IMG/VR virus record: IMGVR_UViG_3300035136_000094
Coordinates: 1-44,959 of that record
Direction: 5' to 3' (one strand)
From: a virus
Length of the DNA stretch: 44,959 nucleotides
Part shown: positions 2,107 to 44,959 of the stretch, one piece after another
Layout of the letters: each line of letters begins with the position of its first letter
Numbering within the stretch: the stretch's first letter is position 1
The notes under the pieces: generated by a model
Told to the model about the DNA's origin: nothing
Database searches by the model: none
Seen by the model: only the letters and a program-made list of their open reading frames with translations
Made by a program: the position numbers and the translations under genes

Positions 2107-2634
2107 CTACAGATGTTTCCATGTTTCTCCCTGTATGGCCTTATATATTCCCATGGTAGAAACACCATATTTCTTTGCCAGTTGTTTATATGTAATGCCT
2201 TTTCTAGCATACTCCTCACGCGCCTTGCGAACAATATCAGAAGTCAATAGTGCGTTACCATGACGTTCGCCACGCACTATTCGTTCCGGACATGTTTTAC
2301 TACCATGATGTTGACCGCGTGCTACTCGTTCTGGATGTGTCACCGATGGATGCCTACCTTTGTTATCCCTATCCATCATATTATCCGACTGTGTTCCAAG
2401 AAATAGATGTTCAGGATTTACGCAACTAGGGTTGTCACAATGATGACAAACATAGTGTCCATCAGGTATTGGCCCAATGAAATGATCATATGAAAAACGA
2501 TGTGCTAAAACACCTTTCCCGTCAACTCTTATCTGGCCATAACCACTGTTGATACAACTCGCCATCCATTCCCAACAGCCATCTTTTCCGTTCTTGTTAA
2601 CCTTGTTAATAAATCTTTCAAATGATGTTTTCAT
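2107..2634 (-). CDS. HNH homing endonuclease with C-terminal helix-turn-helix
   Basis: Residues 15-100 hold an HNH_3-type nuclease: GCWEW near the start, GYGQI, AHRFSY, then YVCHHCDNPSCVNPEHL with the catalytic/metal His, Asn and His, and GTQSDN followed by GRHP. Two PERxxRGxxHG units follow (about 100-130), typical of NUMOD-like DNA-binding repeats, and the C-terminus (about 135-172) is a helix-turn-helix (ITYKQLAKKYGVSTMGIYKAI). Its ATG overlaps the stop of the preceding 670-aa gene by four bases, so it is translationally coupled to its host operon. An AGGAA ribosome site precedes it. Such enzymes cut alleles lacking the insertion and spread by repair. All key residues appear present, so it is probably active. 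Confidence 0.94.
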   Translation of the reverse strand: MKTSFERFINKVNKNGKDGCWEWMASCINSGYGQIRVDGKGVLAHRFSYDHFIGPIPDGHYVCHHCDNPSCVNPEHLFLGTQSDNMMDRDNKGRHPSVTHPERVARGQHHGSKTCPERIVRGERHGNALLTSDIVRKAREEYARKGITYKQLAKKYGVSTMGIYKAIQGETWKHL

Positions 2635-5552: not shown

Positions 5553-6395
5553 TTATTCATGAGTTGATTTTTTTATATAGCTCCGTCGACGGAGACATTG
5601 AGACTCCCCAATAGCCTGGATGCGTCCGGTCAGGATGCCAATGCACGCCGTCGCAAAACCCATCAGGTTGTCCAGCTGTCGTTCGGTGACACCAAAGGCG
5701 ATCCCGTAGGCAGAGGCCGCCGTCTGAATAAGACGGACAATCTCTTTCCGGATAAAGCCTGGGGTGACACCGCGTCCCATCTGAAGGGTATGGGCCATGA
5801 CACCCAAGATGGCCTTGGCTACGCCCTTGGATACCAACACCTCCATGGCCTTCGTTCGACCATCTTTCGCTGCCTTCATGATACGATCAAGGGATTGCTT
5901 GGCCGCAGTTGGTGGGGTCCTCATCAGGTCATTGACGACCGCGAGATTCCCGTTACTGAGTTTACCGTATTCCGCCGTAAGATCCCGGAGTGCCTCCAGT
6001 AGAACGGCAACGGTGTCGTCGTCAACGTCTTCCCCGATCAGGGAGCGCATGGATTCTTTGACACTCGGGTTCAAGGACATCATCAACTCGTCGACAGGGT
6101 CCATTTTCGCCTTCTTTCCGTGGAACTTGTTGGCCAAATTGCGCTTCTCGACAGCCCTGTCATAGGCTTCCTTGGCCCTCCAGTAATCCACAACAACCGG
6201 CCCCTTAAGGTTTCCCTTCATGTAGGCCATGCGCTTTTTATCGAGCACATAGGAATAGTTGTGCCCCTCGATCTTCTCCGGCAACATCGCCAGCTTGAAG
6301 ATCTTAGCCCGTGATGGGCTTTTTACCGTCTTGTCGCGCAATGTTTCCCCTGTCAGGTACCCGTCTCCAACCAATATTACATATTTGTCACTCAT
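5553..6395 (-). CDS. Unassigned phage protein, 280 aa, C-terminal LRRRSYI motif
   Basis: The start is supported by TAGGAGATAGTC before the ATG. The N-terminal half (1-110) is mixed alpha/beta and basic; the C-terminal half (about 110-265) is mostly helical with a hydrophobic stretch around 245-262 (NLMGFATACIGILTG) that may be a single weak membrane or core helix. The last residues, LRRRSYIKKSTHE, repeat the peptide found at the N-terminus of the adjacent 187-aa protein (LRRRSYLENK). A shared short motif at opposite ends of neighbours suggests a common binding partner or targeting signal. Nothing else identifies it. It follows the u-spanin candidate by nine bases. Confidence 0.84.
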   Translation of the reverse strand: MSDKYVILVGDGYLTGETLRDKTVKSPSRAKIFKLAMLPEKIEGHNYSYVLDKKRMAYMKGNLKGPVVVDYWRAKEAYDRAVEKRNLANKFHGKKAKMDPVDELMMSLNPSVKESMRSLIGEDVDDDTVAVLLEALRDLTAEYGKLSNGNLAVVNDLMRTPPTAAKQSLDRIMKAAKDGRTKAMEVLVSKGVAKAILGVMAHTLQMGRGVTPGFIRKEIVRLIQTAASAYGIAFGVTERQLDNLMGFATACIGILTGRIQAIGESQCLRRRSYIKKSTHE

Positions 6396-16204: not shown

Positions 16205-16258
16205 TTTTCTTCCTGCACTTTCTCTCATCTAGACATAACGGACTTGAACTCGTACTTG

Positions 16259-16370
16259 TTAACACGATCTGCCGCCTTCCTGGTTCATCGCGCCACTTGG
16301 CGCTCCACAGGCGTTTATGGTCCCACGCGTAGCGTGTGACATTGTCTCCCAATGCCTTTGGGCGACCTTT
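16259..16370 (-). pseudogene. Decayed TnpB C-terminal tail
   Basis: One frame reads VAQRHWETMSHATRG, then TINACGAPSGAMNQEGG and RSC-stop. It matches the end of the complete TnpB tail in this window (LERINACGAANAAMRQEV) in the order INACG, A-P/A, AM, QE. There is no RuvC or zinc-finger sequence before it. It is the coding face of the RNA element listed at the same place. Confidence 0.6.
16279..16370 (-). ncRNA. Free-standing omega-RNA-like element (copy B)
   Basis: It lies in a 200-base gap between the 146-aa and 164-aa genes. The 33-nt core (16279-16311) has outer helix CCTG/CAGG and inner hairpin GCGCCA-AG-TGGCGC. Upstream come GGTC...GACC, GCC-CAAA-GGC, ATTG-GGAGA-CAAT and CACGC-TAC-GCGTG pairings. 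The core has the same length, helix positions and TGGA/ATGA linkers as the genuine tnpB 3' end, with compensatory changes in both helices. Known: the 3' end of tnpB and the element's right end form the guide RNA scaffold. Inference: a stand-alone reRNA that could be used in trans. The rest of the gap (16205-16278) holds no gene that I can see. Confidence 0.6.
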
Positions 16371-39031: not shown

Positions 39032-39516
39032 TACTCGTTCTCAATTTCCTCAATCGCGACGGTCAGCTCCTGCATGTTCACGTCAGCCGCGTTGGCATCA
39101 AGGTCACCCTTGGCTTTCACGCTGGTCGGAATACATTCCTTCCAAGTTTGACTTGCAACGTGTACATCATCAGAGGATGTTCCATCACCCTCCTGGTTGT
39201 ACATGCGCACCTCAAGATCTGTACGGAATGGACGCTTGTTCTGGTAAGCAAGAATCCAATTGAAGATCGTGTTGTCACCGATCAGAATTCCACGGCTCAA
39301 TGTCGCCTCACCGACTTCAACAGGACCGAGAAGTTTCTTAGTGTGCCTGTCAGCTCCCGTTCTGTAGGTTGCCACCTCCGATGTCACTTCCGGTGTTGTG
39401 ATGGTTGTGAACCCAGCAATCGGCGTCTCATCCGCAAAAACACCTGGTCCGCCATCAACCTCGAAAAGGCGAAACCGAAAGGACTGGAGTTGGTCTTCAG
39501 CAGTTGTTCTGGCCAT
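39031..39516 (-). CDS. Tail tube protein, gp19-like
   Basis: 161 residues with the T4 gp19-like pattern: MARTTAEDQLQSFRFRLFEVD, AGFTTITTPEVTSEVATYRTG, LGPVEVGEATLSRGILIGD, FNWILAYQNKRPFR, then VRMYNQEG and NMQELTVAIEEIE. Its length matches the family. AGAAGGAG gives a strong ribosome site, lying within the 3' end of the homing endonuclease gene; the start itself is overlapped by that gene's last codons. Hexamers of it stack inside the sheath as the inner tube. Confidence 0.9.
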   Translation of the reverse strand: MARTTAEDQLQSFRFRLFEVDGGPGVFADETPIAGFTTITTPEVTSEVATYRTGADRHTKKLLGPVEVGEATLSRGILIGDNTIFNWILAYQNKRPFRTDLEVRMYNQEGDGTSSDDVHVASQTWKECIPTSVKAKGDLDANAADVNMQELTVAIEEIENE

Positions 39517-40378
39517 GATTATCTCCTTCTATCTGATGGCGTAAAGAAGATACCTCGTCTGCCATCTTATGGTTTAAATAGTACTCTTCGGCCAAACCCA
39601 ATGCAACCATTTCGGCAGGACCGATTATCCTCAATGTTTCTTCTGGATACCTTGAAACAAACGCTTTGATGCGCCAGATCGTGCGTGCATCCAACCAACC
39701 TTTTACTTCGTGATACTCGACACCATGTTCCGTTTGCACACGAAAATCTGGCGTGTAGATATAGCCATCAAGGATGAATTTCTTAGGCTCATATTCCCAG
39801 TCTAGATCTTGATCATCAAGATACTTCGCATAAGCCAGCTCCCAGCGGCTCTTGAACACGTGCTCGTTGCCCTTAAGATCCAACCATGGTTCCGTCTTGA
39901 ACTTCCCCCAACCAGTACGAGAGGGCACACCAAACTCAACCAAAGCCGAACTAATAGTCGATGTCGACACATCAAAAAAACTGGCTATTTCACAAAGGGT
40001 TTTCCCAGATTCATATTGGATTGCCGCTTCAAGACGATTATCTTCTTCTAACGCAAACGGACGTTTTTTTTCGCGACGTGAAATTGCATTTCTACGTAAC
40101 ACCTTAAGGATAGTGCTTGGTACAATATCTACTTCTCTAGCAACATTCATGGTTGATAATCCAGATAAGTAAAGCTTAATGATTTCATCTTCGGTATTTC
40201 TAGAAAGTGGCTCTATTCTGCCAGGCCCTCTTGGTTTTTCCCTTTGTATGCCATTTCTTTTGAAAATATTGCGAACAGTAGACGGTGACACTTTAAAGGA
40301 GGAAGATAACTTACCTGGAGTGACCCCATTCTTAAAATCTTCAATCAATTTTCTTTCTTGTGCCACCGTCAATTTCAT
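39497..40378 (-). CDS. Homing endonuclease: three helix-turn-helix units and PD-(D/E)XK nuclease
   Basis: TTG at 40384 is possible, but ATG at 40378 has AAGGA nine bases upstream. Three helix-turn-helix units of ~45 residues follow one another (KLTVAQERKLIEDFKNGVTP, RNTEDEIIKLYLSGLST, IASFFDVSTSTISSALV). After residue 150 comes a PD-(D/E)XK nuclease: WELAYAKYLDD, WEYEPKKFIL, YTPDF (Asp about 209), then EYHEVKGW (Glu about 224, Lys about 226). Known: such free-standing enzymes mobilise themselves in phages. It is inserted between the sheath and tube genes; its last 20 bases overlap the tube start, so it supplies the tube's ribosome site. Catalytic residues are all visible. Confidence 0.85.
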   Translation of the reverse strand: MKLTVAQERKLIEDFKNGVTPGKLSSSFKVSPSTVRNIFKRNGIQREKPRGPGRIEPLSRNTEDEIIKLYLSGLSTMNVAREVDIVPSTILKVLRRNAISRREKKRPFALEEDNRLEAAIQYESGKTLCEIASFFDVSTSTISSALVEFGVPSRTGWGKFKTEPWLDLKGNEHVFKSRWELAYAKYLDDQDLDWEYEPKKFILDGYIYTPDFRVQTEHGVEYHEVKGWLDARTIWRIKAFVSRYPEETLRIIGPAEMVALGLAEEYYLNHKMADEVSSLRHQIEGDNHGQNNC

Positions 40379-40390
40379 TTGCAACTATCC

Positions 40391-42558: not shown

Positions 42559-43092
42559 TTATTCTTGATCTTTGTCATCTCTTTTGCCTGACCGAGATCG
42601 TTTGCGTCTTTTCTTGGCAGGCTCTTGGCATAATGAAATATCATCTTCTTGTCTCATTGGATCCTGTGACCCTCCACAAGCGTTTATGGTCTCCACATGC
42701 CCTACGGCGACCTCTACTGTTCCATTATCAGGCTCACCGGATTTTGAAGTCAAACTATCACCGTCTTTTTCTTCTTCCAATTCAGCCTCTTGGACAGGTC
42801 CCGCCGTTTCTGGCGCCATTTCATACACAATAGGATCCTCTATGGTAACCTCTTGCACTTCTTCCTCTGCATGAATAGCGGCCTCAAGATTCCCTTCCGG
42901 CTGGACTTTCACAGGAACCGCAATCAATTTCAGCCGCCTTCCTTTGATGTTGCGCTGGATCTCAGCACACGAAAATTCTGTTTCTGTGCATTCTAAAATC
43001 CCACCGGCAGCCAAGGATATGCTCTTCCCAGCATACTCCAATGGCAATGGTTGTCTCATTCTATTCTTCAGTTCAAATTTTCCATCTTGCAT
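42559..43092 (-). CDS. Tail-proximal protein carrying an in-frame TnpB-tail remnant, 177 aa
   Basis: Residues 1-60 (KNRMRQPLPLEYAGKSISLAAG, RNIKGRRLKLIAV) look like a small beta domain. Residues of 70-125 are acidic and low-complexity. Residues of about 126-149 (VEVAVGHVETINACGG, SQDPMRQE) match the C-terminal tail of TnpB, and the DNA beneath holds the same folded element found at the end of tnpB. A basic end follows (KKRRKRSRSGKRDDK). I infer that an element's right end was inserted and has been kept in frame. The rest is unassigned; location between the 244-aa gene and the sheath suggests neck or tail-terminator function. Confidence 0.78.
   Translation of the reverse strand: MQDGKFELKNRMRQPLPLEYAGKSISLAAGGILECTETEFSCAEIQRNIKGRRLKLIAVPVKVQPEGNLEAAIHAEEEVQEVTIEDPIVYEMAPETAGPVQEAELEEEKDGDSLTSKSGEPDNGTVEVAVGHVETINACGGSQDPMRQEDDISLCQEPAKKRRKRSRSGKRDDKDQE
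42648..42714 (-). ncRNA. Omega-RNA-like element (copy C) inside a coding sequence
   Basis: The 33-nt core (42648-42680) has outer helix CTTG/CAAG and inner hairpin GGGTC-ACAG-GATCC, with the same linkers (TGGA, AATGAGA) as copies A and B. Upstream GGTC...GACC and GCC-GTAG-GGC pairings match copy B. It is encoded in frame in the 177-aa gene, so it would be present in that mRNA and could be processed from it. Whether it still functions as RNA is unknown. Confidence 0.5.
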
Positions 43093-43100
43093 TCAAGACC

Positions 43101-43835
43101 TCATTCTTCTGTTTTGTGATCAAAGCTTTGCTGTACCGATGTTACTGGCTTCTGAATATAGGGATCACGGACGTCAATTTCCGCCATCACTCGGCAAGTC
43201 AAGGCCATGATAATCGTTCTATCTCTGATATCACCAATCGATGTCAGATCAGAATATCCCTCTGTGTGTACCCAATAGCTTCGACGCCTACCCTCTGTAT
43301 CCTCCACGAAGACCTTCCCGTGTGGATAAAAGAACTTCATGCAATGCTTCAAAAGAATATGCGCGTTTCGCTTGGCTGCCTTCCCGTTTGCCTCGCACAT
43401 GATCGTATAAGAAAGATCCGTTGGTATGCCGTCTTCCTGTTCTTGATATTCCGAATACCCTGTAAAGATCTGCCCGCGATACTGCATGGTGACCTCCGAG
43501 GCACCCGGGGCAGGAGCACGATATTTCACCCTGTGACCATGCTGTCGTTCCAGAGCTGGGCTGGGATCCTCCCTCTTTATGTGGATACATGGAATCAATT
43601 GTCGTACCACCTCAGATGGCTCCCCCATTGAAAAAGGGATCCCTGGCATCGGCTGTCCAATATCCGACTCATTTCCGGTAAACTCCGAAAACGATGGTGG
43701 TTGAATCGTAGGCACAAGGATCTGAGGGAGATAGTACCGATTTCCAATCCTCTCTCCCTTTAGCGTGGTGATAAGACCCTCGTCAAATTCCCGATAAAAC
43801 ACATCTCCAAGGATTTCTGTGTTGTGTCTAGCCAT
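43101..43835 (-). CDS. Tail-proximal (neck or tail terminator-like) protein, 244 aa
   Basis: MARHNTEILGDVFYREFDEG begins a mixed alpha/beta chain with beta-rich stretches (YSEYQEQEDGIPTDLSYTIM, RNAHILLKHCMKFFYPHGKV, RSYWVHTEGYSDLTS). Its size and location two genes upstream of the sheath fit a head-tail connector or tail terminator (gp15-like), but I see no decisive motif. It starts 24 bases after the TnpB stop, with only a weak ribosome site (CGGTG), as if the TnpB insertion had replaced its original leader. ACGGTGACCGT, a perfect inverted repeat, stands there. Confidence 0.75.
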   Translation of the reverse strand: MARHNTEILGDVFYREFDEGLITTLKGERIGNRYYLPQILVPTIQPPSFSEFTGNESDIGQPMPGIPFSMGEPSEVVRQLIPCIHIKREDPSPALERQHGHRVKYRAPAPGASEVTMQYRGQIFTGYSEYQEQEDGIPTDLSYTIMCEANGKAAKRNAHILLKHCMKFFYPHGKVFVEDTEGRRRSYWVHTEGYSDLTSIGDIRDRTIIMALTCRVMAEIDVRDPYIQKPVTSVQQSFDHKTEE

Positions 43836-43858
43836 GCACGGTCACCGTTCTGTAAAGA

Positions 43859-44959
43859 CTAACATTTGCTACAGTTATGCAGCAAAACGCTCACTTCTTG
43901 CCTCATAGCGGCATTTGCCGCTCCACAAGCGTTTATCCTCTCCAGAGAACTTCCGGCGAGTCTTTGTAGGTTTATAGAAGCATTCACATCACGATCATGA
44001 ACCGTGCCACAAAAATTGCAAGCCCACTCACGATCTGATAACTGCAACTTCTCATTCTTCTGGCCACAAACGGAACACAACTTCGATGACGGATAAAAAC
44101 GATCCGCAATAACCAAATCCTGATTGGCCAACTTCGTCTTGTAGTCCAGCTGTCTCCTAAATTCTCCCCACCCTTGATCCGATATGGACTTGGCAAGATT
44201 GTGATTCTTCACCATGTTAGATATAGCTAGATCCTCGATAACAATAGTGCCAAACCTACGAACCAAATCCGTAATCAACTTGTGCAAGAAGTCCTGACGG
44301 ATATTCCGGATTCGAAGATACTGTTTTGCCACAAAAAATCTGGCCCTTTGACGATTTCTGGAACCCTTCTTCTTGCGTGACAAAGACCGCTGAAGCCTTT
44401 TTAGTTTCCTCTCATTCGAACGAAGTGCCTTCGGCCCATGAACCCTATCTCCCGTAGACAAAACAGCAAAATCCTTGATGCCCAAGTCTACCCCAACCAC
44501 AGTTTGATTCTCGCTGTGATATGTATATTCGTAGGTATCAAGCAATTCAACTTGGAAAGATGCAAAATATTGATCCGCTTTTTTCGAAATAGTTACTGAC
44601 AAAATTCTTCCAGGAAACCGAACCTGTTCATCCATTCGAATAGAAGACTTCAATTTTGGAACCCTCAAATGTCTTGATTCCGGTCTCAAATTGTAACTAT
44701 CAGCAGAGATAGTAAAACTGTCATGCAGACCTTTCCTGTGAAACCTTGGGAATCCAGACTTCTTCTTGAAAAACATCTGAAAGGCTTTTCCGCTATGCAA
44801 TATCGCATTCGTGGGTGCATGCTTGGTCACCTCATACATCCATGGATACTCTGTCTTCTTGATGGCATTCAGCTTCTTCTTGAGTTCATATGCAGAAAGT
44901 GACTTACCAGTTTCCTCATAATGCTTCTTCGATGTGGCTATCGCCCAATTGTACGCAAA
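43859..44959 (-). CDS. tnpB: TnpB-family RNA-guided nuclease, N-terminal start outside the window
   Basis: 366 residues are visible, open at the right edge. Positions count from the edge. FAYNW (1-5) and KLNAIKK (29-35) belong to the N-terminal domain, with start beyond the window. RuvC-I VGVDLGIKDFAV (Asp158), the basic KKKGSRNRQRAR linker, RuvC-II IVIEDLAISNM (Glu242), a four-Cys zinc finger CSVC...CNFC (295-317) and RuvC-III HDRDVNAS (Asp324) are intact. The tail INACGAANAAMRQE and the hairpin beneath it form the omega-RNA end. Catalytically complete on sequence, it is probably an active nuclease. It is inserted upstream of the neck-like gene; no TnpA is seen. Confidence 0.95.
   Translation of the reverse strand, partial: FAYNWAIATSKKHYEETGKSLSAYELKKKLNAIKKTEYPWMYEVTKHAPTNAILHSGKAFQMFFKKKSGFPRFHRKGLHDSFTISADSYNLRPESRHLRVPKLKSSIRMDEQVRFPGRILSVTISKKADQYFASFQVELLDTYEYTYHSENQTVVGVDLGIKDFAVLSTGDRVHGPKALRSNERKLKRLQRSLSRKKKGSRNRQRARFFVAKQYLRIRNIRQDFLHKLITDLVRRFGTIVIEDLAISNMVKNHNLAKSISDQGWGEFRRQLDYKTKLANQDLVIADRFYPSSKLCSVCGQKNEKLQLSDREWACNFCGTVHDRDVNASINLQRLAGSSLERINACGAANAAMRQEVSVLLHNCSKC
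43897..43960 (-). ncRNA. Omega-RNA 3' region overlapping the end of tnpB (copy A)
   Basis: The 33-nt core (43897-43929) has outer helix CTTG/CAAG and inner hairpin GCGGCA-AA-TGCCGC with the linkers TGGA and TATGAGG. An additional hairpin TTTGCTGC-ATAACT-GTAGCAAA (eight pairs including one G-U) follows at 43866-43887. Known: TnpB guide-RNA scaffolds come from exactly this part of the gene. Copies B and C share the core. The guide part would lie after the element's right end, which I cannot place. Confidence 0.65.

Follow-up and report, generated by a model that had tools for sequence, protein, structure and literature searches.

Two described systems are close to the elements considered here. 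RAGATH-18 is the guide-RNA scaffold (reRNA) of IS607 TnpB, and 64% of RAGATH-18 RNAs adjoin TnpB, the remaining 36% being left unexplained (PMC11061315); in ISDra2, the loop of the first hairpin of the TnpB guide RNA (omegaRNA) is base-paired to the nucleotides immediately 5' of the guide (PMC10097598). Here we describe three scaffolds, copies A, B and C, in the IMG/VR virus record IMGVR_UViG_3300035136_000094, all 44,959 nt of which form the window analysed (positions are in whole-window numbering); the genes that can be recognised in it specify the tail of a phage with a contractile tail, and almost all of them lie on the minus strand. That A, B and C are TnpB guide-RNA scaffolds (omegaRNA/reRNA, RAGATH-18-like) is well supported. 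Copy A forms the usual 3' terminus of a tnpB gene, and on balance we lean towards reading B and C as guide-only elements that lost the tnpB frame and kept the scaffold, are served in trans by TnpB and probably spread by RNA-guided homing.

Structurally, the three copies share a 33-nt core on the minus strand (A 43897-43929, B 42648-42680, C 16279-16311), and these positions, first picked out in an earlier note on this DNA, were recovered independently as the top direct-repeat family of the window (47 nt, at 43894-43940, 42645-42691 and 16276-16322, with 72-79% identity). The motif ATAAACGCYTGTGGAG has three exact matches in the window and no others at up to 3 mismatches, a tolerance at which shuffled sequences gave 0.41 matches. 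The outer helix of the cores is CTTG/CAAG or CCTG/CAGG and the inner helix GCGGCA/TGCCGC, GGGTC/GATCC or GCGCCA/TGGCGC, so that sequence changes and pairing stays, just as the note had described, and each core is in addition the middle of a larger unit with a 3+5-bp hairpin (hairpin 1) upstream of it. Hairpin 1 pairs as CTC-CCGGA/TCTGG-GAG in A, GTC-CCGTA/TGTGG-GAC in B and GTC-CACGC/GCGTG-GAC in C. When A, B and C were aligned with two copies from one relative phage, 88 of 90 base-pair cells were standard and 11 of the 18 pairs varied compatibly, and the minimum free energy (MFE) of the two hairpins of copy A (z -3.2) was equalled by none of 200 shuffles.

Evidence from beyond the window fixes the identity of these RNAs. 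In related phage TnpBs, the layout around the core runs from a hairpin through T or A followed by ACGCYTGTGGAG, a variable inner stem, GAAGCARGAA and a third hairpin to a 3' motif (GTTCAC, GTTCAA or GAACGG), beyond which the sequence is variable, as expected of a guide. When viral contigs were scanned with a degenerate pattern, 109 distinct cores were left after duplicate removal, about 40 of them without tnpB, and a covariance model (R1) was built from an alignment of 30 tnpB-linked omegaRNAs from other phages, none from the window. In this alignment 98.9% of base-pair cells were paired, double changes numbered 71 where shuffles gave 20, and the covariation score was 0.61 as opposed to 0.17; thus, the covariation noted at the outset holds with many more homologues, and that of the hairpin is independent of selection since the hairpin was absent from the search pattern. 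In the outer helix a single pair varies, and its two sides change together (C-G in 20 sequences, U-A in 10), corresponding to CCTG/CAGG versus CTTG/CAAG. Run over the window, R1 ranked A, C and B first to third (27.8, 23.5 and 19.1 bits; E 3e-5, 5e-4 and 7e-3), with the next match at 14.8 bits (E 0.09); matches at 39205 (plus) and 5960-6004 (minus) fall under this score gap and were taken as chance. It also recovered the two relative-phage copies, and across 24 control phage records it gave a single match, directly after the only TnpB domain match among those records. Because a model made from unrelated tnpB-linked omegaRNAs ranks them first to third, chance is ruled out for A, B and C, and the claim of a dispersed omegaRNA family made in the earlier note is borne out. 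Against Rfam RAGATH-18 (RF03064), copy C scored 34.1 bits (E 3.5e-5 in a 201-nt search; gathering score 44.9), a match that surfaced by E-value only; at the gathering threshold Rfam gave no match in the whole window, A and B included, and A did not match RAGATH-18 even by E-value. Since RAGATH-18 is the guide scaffold of IS607 TnpB, we regard the family to which these RNAs belong as settled.

The copies, their parts and the genes that bear them are laid out as follows:

43845..43960, minus strand: copy A, omegaRNA at the tnpB_R 3' end (R1 27.8 bits, E 3.4e-5)
Parts of copy A, minus strand: hairpin 1, 43960-43938; core and outer helix, 43929-43897; third hairpin; pseudoknot partner GAACG, 43850-43846
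43825..43844, minus strand: predicted guide of A, directly after GAACGG, placed by analogy with the register in other omegaRNAs; extends over the start codon of open reading frame 244 (ORF244)
43859..44959, minus strand: tnpB_R, C-terminal 366 aa of a TnpB nuclease, N-terminus lost at the contig end
2..721, minus strand: tnpB_L, N-terminal 240 aa of a second TnpB with 46% identity to tnpB_R; 3' end and omegaRNA beyond the contig
42625..42711, minus strand: copy B, stand-alone scaffold in frame within ORF177 (R1 19.1 bits, E 0.007)
Parts of copy B, minus strand: hairpin 1, 42711-42689, loop GGGCA; core, 42680-42648; possible pseudoknot partner TGCCA, 42630-42626
42605..42624, minus strand: predicted guide of B, ORF177 coding sequence directly 3' of the scaffold
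42559..43092, minus strand: ORF177, host gene of copy B, with an acidic/basic low-complexity C-terminus
16244..16340, minus strand: copy C, stand-alone scaffold between ORF146 and ORF172 (R1 23.5 bits, E 5e-4)
Parts of copy C, minus strand: hairpin 1, 16340-16320; core, 16311-16279; third hairpin; 3' end GTTCAA, 16249-16244
16224..16243, minus strand: predicted guide of C, directly after GTTCAA and extending over the start codon of ORF172; C has no clear pseudoknot

Functionally, tnpB_R carries the Pfam domains OrfB_IS605 and TNB together with a zinc finger, scores 297 bits against the RNA-guided TnpB family NF040570 (NCBIfam guided_TnpB; cut-off 100), and has a RuvC D/E/D triad that can be read in its sequence (D in VGVDLG, E in VIEDL, D in DRDVNAS); its nearest PDB chains are an AI-designed nuclease (9yyg) and then ISDra2 TnpB 8bf8. 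Within the window copy A alone adjoins a nuclease gene (by overlap or by directly following it), as had been suggested; B and C do not, and no further tnpB piece was detected in the window beyond the two truncated genes and the scaffold copies. The proposal that one TnpB is served by several trans-acting guides found no support, in that the window has two different tnpB genes and the 3' ends of A and C differ; because C ends in GTTCAA and A in GAACGG, C may be served by another TnpB. Both contig ends fall inside these different tnpB genes (1-721 and 43859-44959), and G012, one of the two top records with five stand-alone scaffolds, also has partial TNB matches at both its ends; repeated tnpB genes may break assemblies, so that counts of TnpB/omegaRNA copies in such phages are probably too low.

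Stand-alone scaffolds are not confined to this window. Among cores with at least 1.5 kb of upstream sequence available, 34 in other phage contigs had no tnpB similarity upstream, and 33 of these 34 keep a hairpin of at least 5 bp, compared with 23% of shuffled sequences and 40 of 47 tnpB-linked copies. By covariance model several such copies can occur in one record, with a maximum of five, and the same or a near-identical scaffold is found with different guides at three pairs of loci (L125/L150, L113/L171 and L118/L137). Stand-alone copies were present in 39 records, 25 of which also encode, on the same contig, a TNB domain of TnpB above the Pfam cut-off, and TnpB similarity elsewhere in the record, weaker matches counted, was present in 21 of 25 stand-alone records of at least 40 kb against 1 of 24 controls. 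Stand-alone copies have the same orientation as the downstream gene in 22 of 26 cases (p 5e-4), a bias that would be expected if they must be transcribed. Their recurrence in many phages suggests that small guide-only elements may borrow TnpB made elsewhere. Many of the other stand-alone elements keep, as judged by eye, short tnpB remnants or IS605-like left-end hairpins, and the persistence of these shows that the copies originated by loss of the tnpB frame. At two loci tRNA genes lie close by: a cluster of six tRNA genes near a stand-alone omegaRNA at L113 (5844-6504), and a tRNA near the scaffold at L163.

A further line of evidence is the pseudoknot. Across the set, the hairpin-1 loop and the guide-proximal 3' motif covary, GGAAC occurring with GTTCA in 29 of 29 cases, GGGCA with TGTCA in 11 of 13 and AGTTC with GAACG in 5 of 6, with almost no cross-combinations; the pairing corresponds to the pseudoknot of the ISDra2 structure (PMC10097598). 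Both copy A (AGTTC; CAGAACGG) and copy B (GGGCA; TGCCA) conform to their loop classes, which we regard as supporting, not decisive.

Within the relatives, the same scaffolds are present or absent from place to place. G001 (IMGVR_UViG_3300042731_008775, 25.5 kb), a fragment without a TnpB gene, has scaffolds on both flanks of its major capsid gene, the B-type immediately upstream and the A-type immediately downstream; a scaffold was sought downstream of the capsid gene in L065, L099 and L100 and upstream of it in L099 and L100, and none was there. The A-type copy has lost the third hairpin and kept GTTAGTCTTT-CAGAACGG. A third G001 piece (L064 12235-12320, minus) joins the first tnpB codons (YLSHKMRIYPN) to a C-type core; it derives from an internal deletion and is probably inactive. 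As G001 carries A-, B- and C-like pieces, the same three scaffold types occur in two related phages at different places. A stringent core pattern run over the viral contigs matched two loci only, G001 and L052. For the window itself, tnpB_R is absent between the corresponding genes of the relative L065, and no scaffold was found just upstream of ORF244 in L066, L068 and L069. ORF177 had no match in Pfam or PHROG, and its homologues in L065, L066, L068 and L069 miss the INACG segment, with an alignment gap of about 15 residues there; the boundary of the predicted guide of B coincides with the point at which the weak ORF177 protein homology restarts (EPAKK). That the copies are merely a conserved protein tail was rejected, as C lies in no gene frame (44 codons) and as copy B of G001 keeps its pairing where INACG has become INACV and M has become K.

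From the identity, structure and stand-alone status of these scaffolds, their variable downstream guides, their presence or absence in relatives and their co-occurrence with TnpB, we infer a route of transcription, binding in trans, processing, cleavage and homing. A stand-alone scaffold would be transcribed as part of phage mRNAs, and TnpB from another locus would bind and trim it, a step for which the processing of its own mRNA by TnpB (PMC10278001) is a precedent; the approximately 20 nt directly 3' of the scaffold would then serve as the guide. Because this guide equals the flanking sequence of the element itself, a related phage free of the element would have an intact target beside a target-adjacent motif (TAM) and would be cut, and repair templated by the element-bearing phage would copy the element in (RNA-guided homing or gene drive), for which the action of TnpB as a gene drive in plasmids is a precedent (PMC11870625). 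More tentatively, and with somewhat less than even expectation, we posit that several nuclease-less loci form a distributed guide repertoire that shares TnpBs from other loci, homes into essential genes of co-infecting relatives and excludes or converts element-free phages; if true, TnpB would be used in multiplex, much as with a CRISPR array, yet with no array present.

Several observations weigh against guide-only elements that home in trans. The minimum-energy fold of copy B, the weakest of the three copies, differs from the scaffold structure (z -1.3; target -11.8 versus MFE -18.0 kcal/mol), the pseudoknot match of A or of B taken singly was no better than in shuffles (4-bp matches being common by chance), and for copy C no pseudoknot partner was evident. 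The third G001 copy is without part of the scaffold, and the TnpB tally given above includes some weak or partial matches. Orientation bias could also come from a replication-strand bias of insertion, and some stand-alone elements, given their tnpB remnants and left-end hairpins, are ordinary deletion derivatives that TnpA could move. Lastly, a near-identical empty allele, which would fix the TAM and the insertion boundaries, was sought and none found. One relative matches the guide of the G001 A-copy with 3 mismatches, with occupied and empty alleles too diverged to place the TAM; all-against-all BLAST of flanks for empty alleles returned occupied copies only, most matches of a guide-target search across loci were chance-like, and L196/L202, considered as an empty site, was clouded by a second insertion of opposite direction. 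Neither ORF172 nor ORF146 gave relatives, hence no empty allele for C, and a search for relatives of ORF177 gave solely the B-type copy of G001. A search of INPHARED with three omegaRNA sequences gave no matches for two and, for the third, 37-nt matches in Escherichia phage ORFs that were taken as chance.

The main rival is decay, in which B and C would be inert 3' fragments of a mostly deleted tnpB insertion whose structure is inherited and not maintained. We consider this unlikely overall; it is alive for the window copies, because B folds poorly (with an MFE 6 kcal/mol below its target structure) and C lacks a clear pseudoknot, and it is less likely for the wider set. Short tnpB remnants (e.g., NEGLRLLS) ahead of several stand-alone scaffolds, the third G001 copy with its collapsed tnpB start fused to the core, and the decayed tnpB with stops carried by G002 are all what decay would leave behind. 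However, the tnpB-derived pieces that survive in the window and in G001 are the omegaRNA end and not random gene parts, and the retention of hairpin 1 in nearly all stand-alone copies of other phages, their orientation bias and their strong co-occurrence with TnpB speak for scaffolds that are kept.

Mobilisation by TnpA offers another route, in which miniature elements resembling palindrome-associated transposable elements (PATE) or miniature inverted-repeat transposable elements (MITE) would keep the scaffold within the right end and be moved by IS200/IS605 TnpA in trans, with TnpB in trans preventing their loss after excision. IS605-like left-end hairpins about 100 nt upstream of several stand-alone copies fit this route, as does the Y1 TnpA encoded by some of these phages; yet Y1 TnpA was above the cut-off in just 5 of the 39 stand-alone records and was not found in the window (a contig fragment), B is an in-frame insert without a visible left end, and no left end was seen for A or C. 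TnpA, moreover, requires only a terminal hairpin and a cleavage site, not hairpin 1 and the core, and we hold this route to be improbable. A separate record, G018 (6.2 kb; L203 286-5942), has two omegaRNA scaffolds in opposite orientation near its two ends; ahead of each scaffold stands its own core start in inverted copy, which makes the ends look palindromic. The record encodes TnpB and a Y1 TnpA and also has a weak partial match to a second TnpA.

Regulatory use, in which stand-alone RNAs would direct TnpB or nuclease-dead TldR to promoters of the phage or the host in the manner of TldR guides, might draw on the overlap of the predicted guides of A and C with start codons and on phage-encoded TldRs, for one broken locus of which guide RNAs in trans have been suggested (PMC13418256), but it is very improbable given that tnpB_R retains the RuvC D/E/D motifs and that the guides match their own downstream sequence, without a TAM where the scaffold sits.

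Beyond the tnpB genes, two other nuclease genes were observed in the window. A minus-strand gene at 39497-40384, between the tail sheath gene and ORF161, encodes a 295-aa protein with several helix-turn-helix motifs and a C-terminal endonuclease/Holliday-junction-resolvase-like domain (PHROGs); L065, L066 and L068 have no room for it there, and its product is likely a free-standing homing endonuclease. An HNH_3 endonuclease gene at 2107-2634 (minus), less than 1.4 kb from tnpB_L, is a probable third type of homing nuclease in the same phage.

With regard to novelty, to call this an undescribed system, as had been done at first, is too strong, the core being a known RNA (RAGATH-18/reRNA) for which the share counted away from TnpB was already on record. 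RNA and nuclease are thus of known kinds, and the new part would be guide-only TnpB loci as a widespread trait of phages, a feature not found in the literature examined, which excluded Meers 2023 and Altae-Tran 2023. Stand-alone guides might account for the 36% of RAGATH-18 RNAs that lie away from TnpB (PMC11061315), and with them RNA-guided homing from phage to phage becomes a specific model that can be put to the test. Cas12 descends from TnpB, and it is still asked how the guide parted from the nuclease; CRISPR needs guides encoded apart from the nuclease, and stand-alone TnpB guides would be a natural example of that separation. The approximately 109 omegaRNA cores in phage contigs are ready targets for tests in cultivable phages.

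Compared with known systems, these elements combine familiar traits. PATE and MITE are non-autonomous IS200/IS605 elements, short tnpB-less derivatives with a right-end RNA structure and ends recognised by TnpA; unlike them, the window copies have no visible left end, and phages with stand-alone copies rarely carry TnpA. Altae-Tran and colleagues reportedly described in 2021 trans-acting omegaRNAs of IscB, with guide-RNA loci apart from the nuclease gene, a separation shared by the loci described here, although the family there is IscB and not TnpB. With the RAGATH-18 reRNA of IS607 TnpB (RF03064; PMC11061315), the copies share a core with outer helix GCYTG/CARG, TGTGGAG, an inner stem and GAAGCARGAA, and a guide 3' of the scaffold; in A, B and C, however, the inner hairpin is shortened and none reaches the gathering score, which the stand-alone L170 passes. 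From IS200/IS605 TnpB-omegaRNA (ISDra2; PMC10097598) they differ in that B and C have no tnpB and the window no TnpA, whereas the likeness extends to tnpB_R, which is closer to ISDra2 TnpB than to 8iaz in PDB, to an omegaRNA that overlaps the tnpB 3' end, and to a hairpin-1 loop predicted, from the family as a whole, to pair with the guide-proximal end. As in the plasmid TnpB gene drive (PMC11870625), where TnpB takes its own flank as guide, cleaves copies free of the element and thereby skews inheritance, the guide here would be the flank of the element itself; there, nuclease and guide travel together, whereas here the guide element is without a nuclease.
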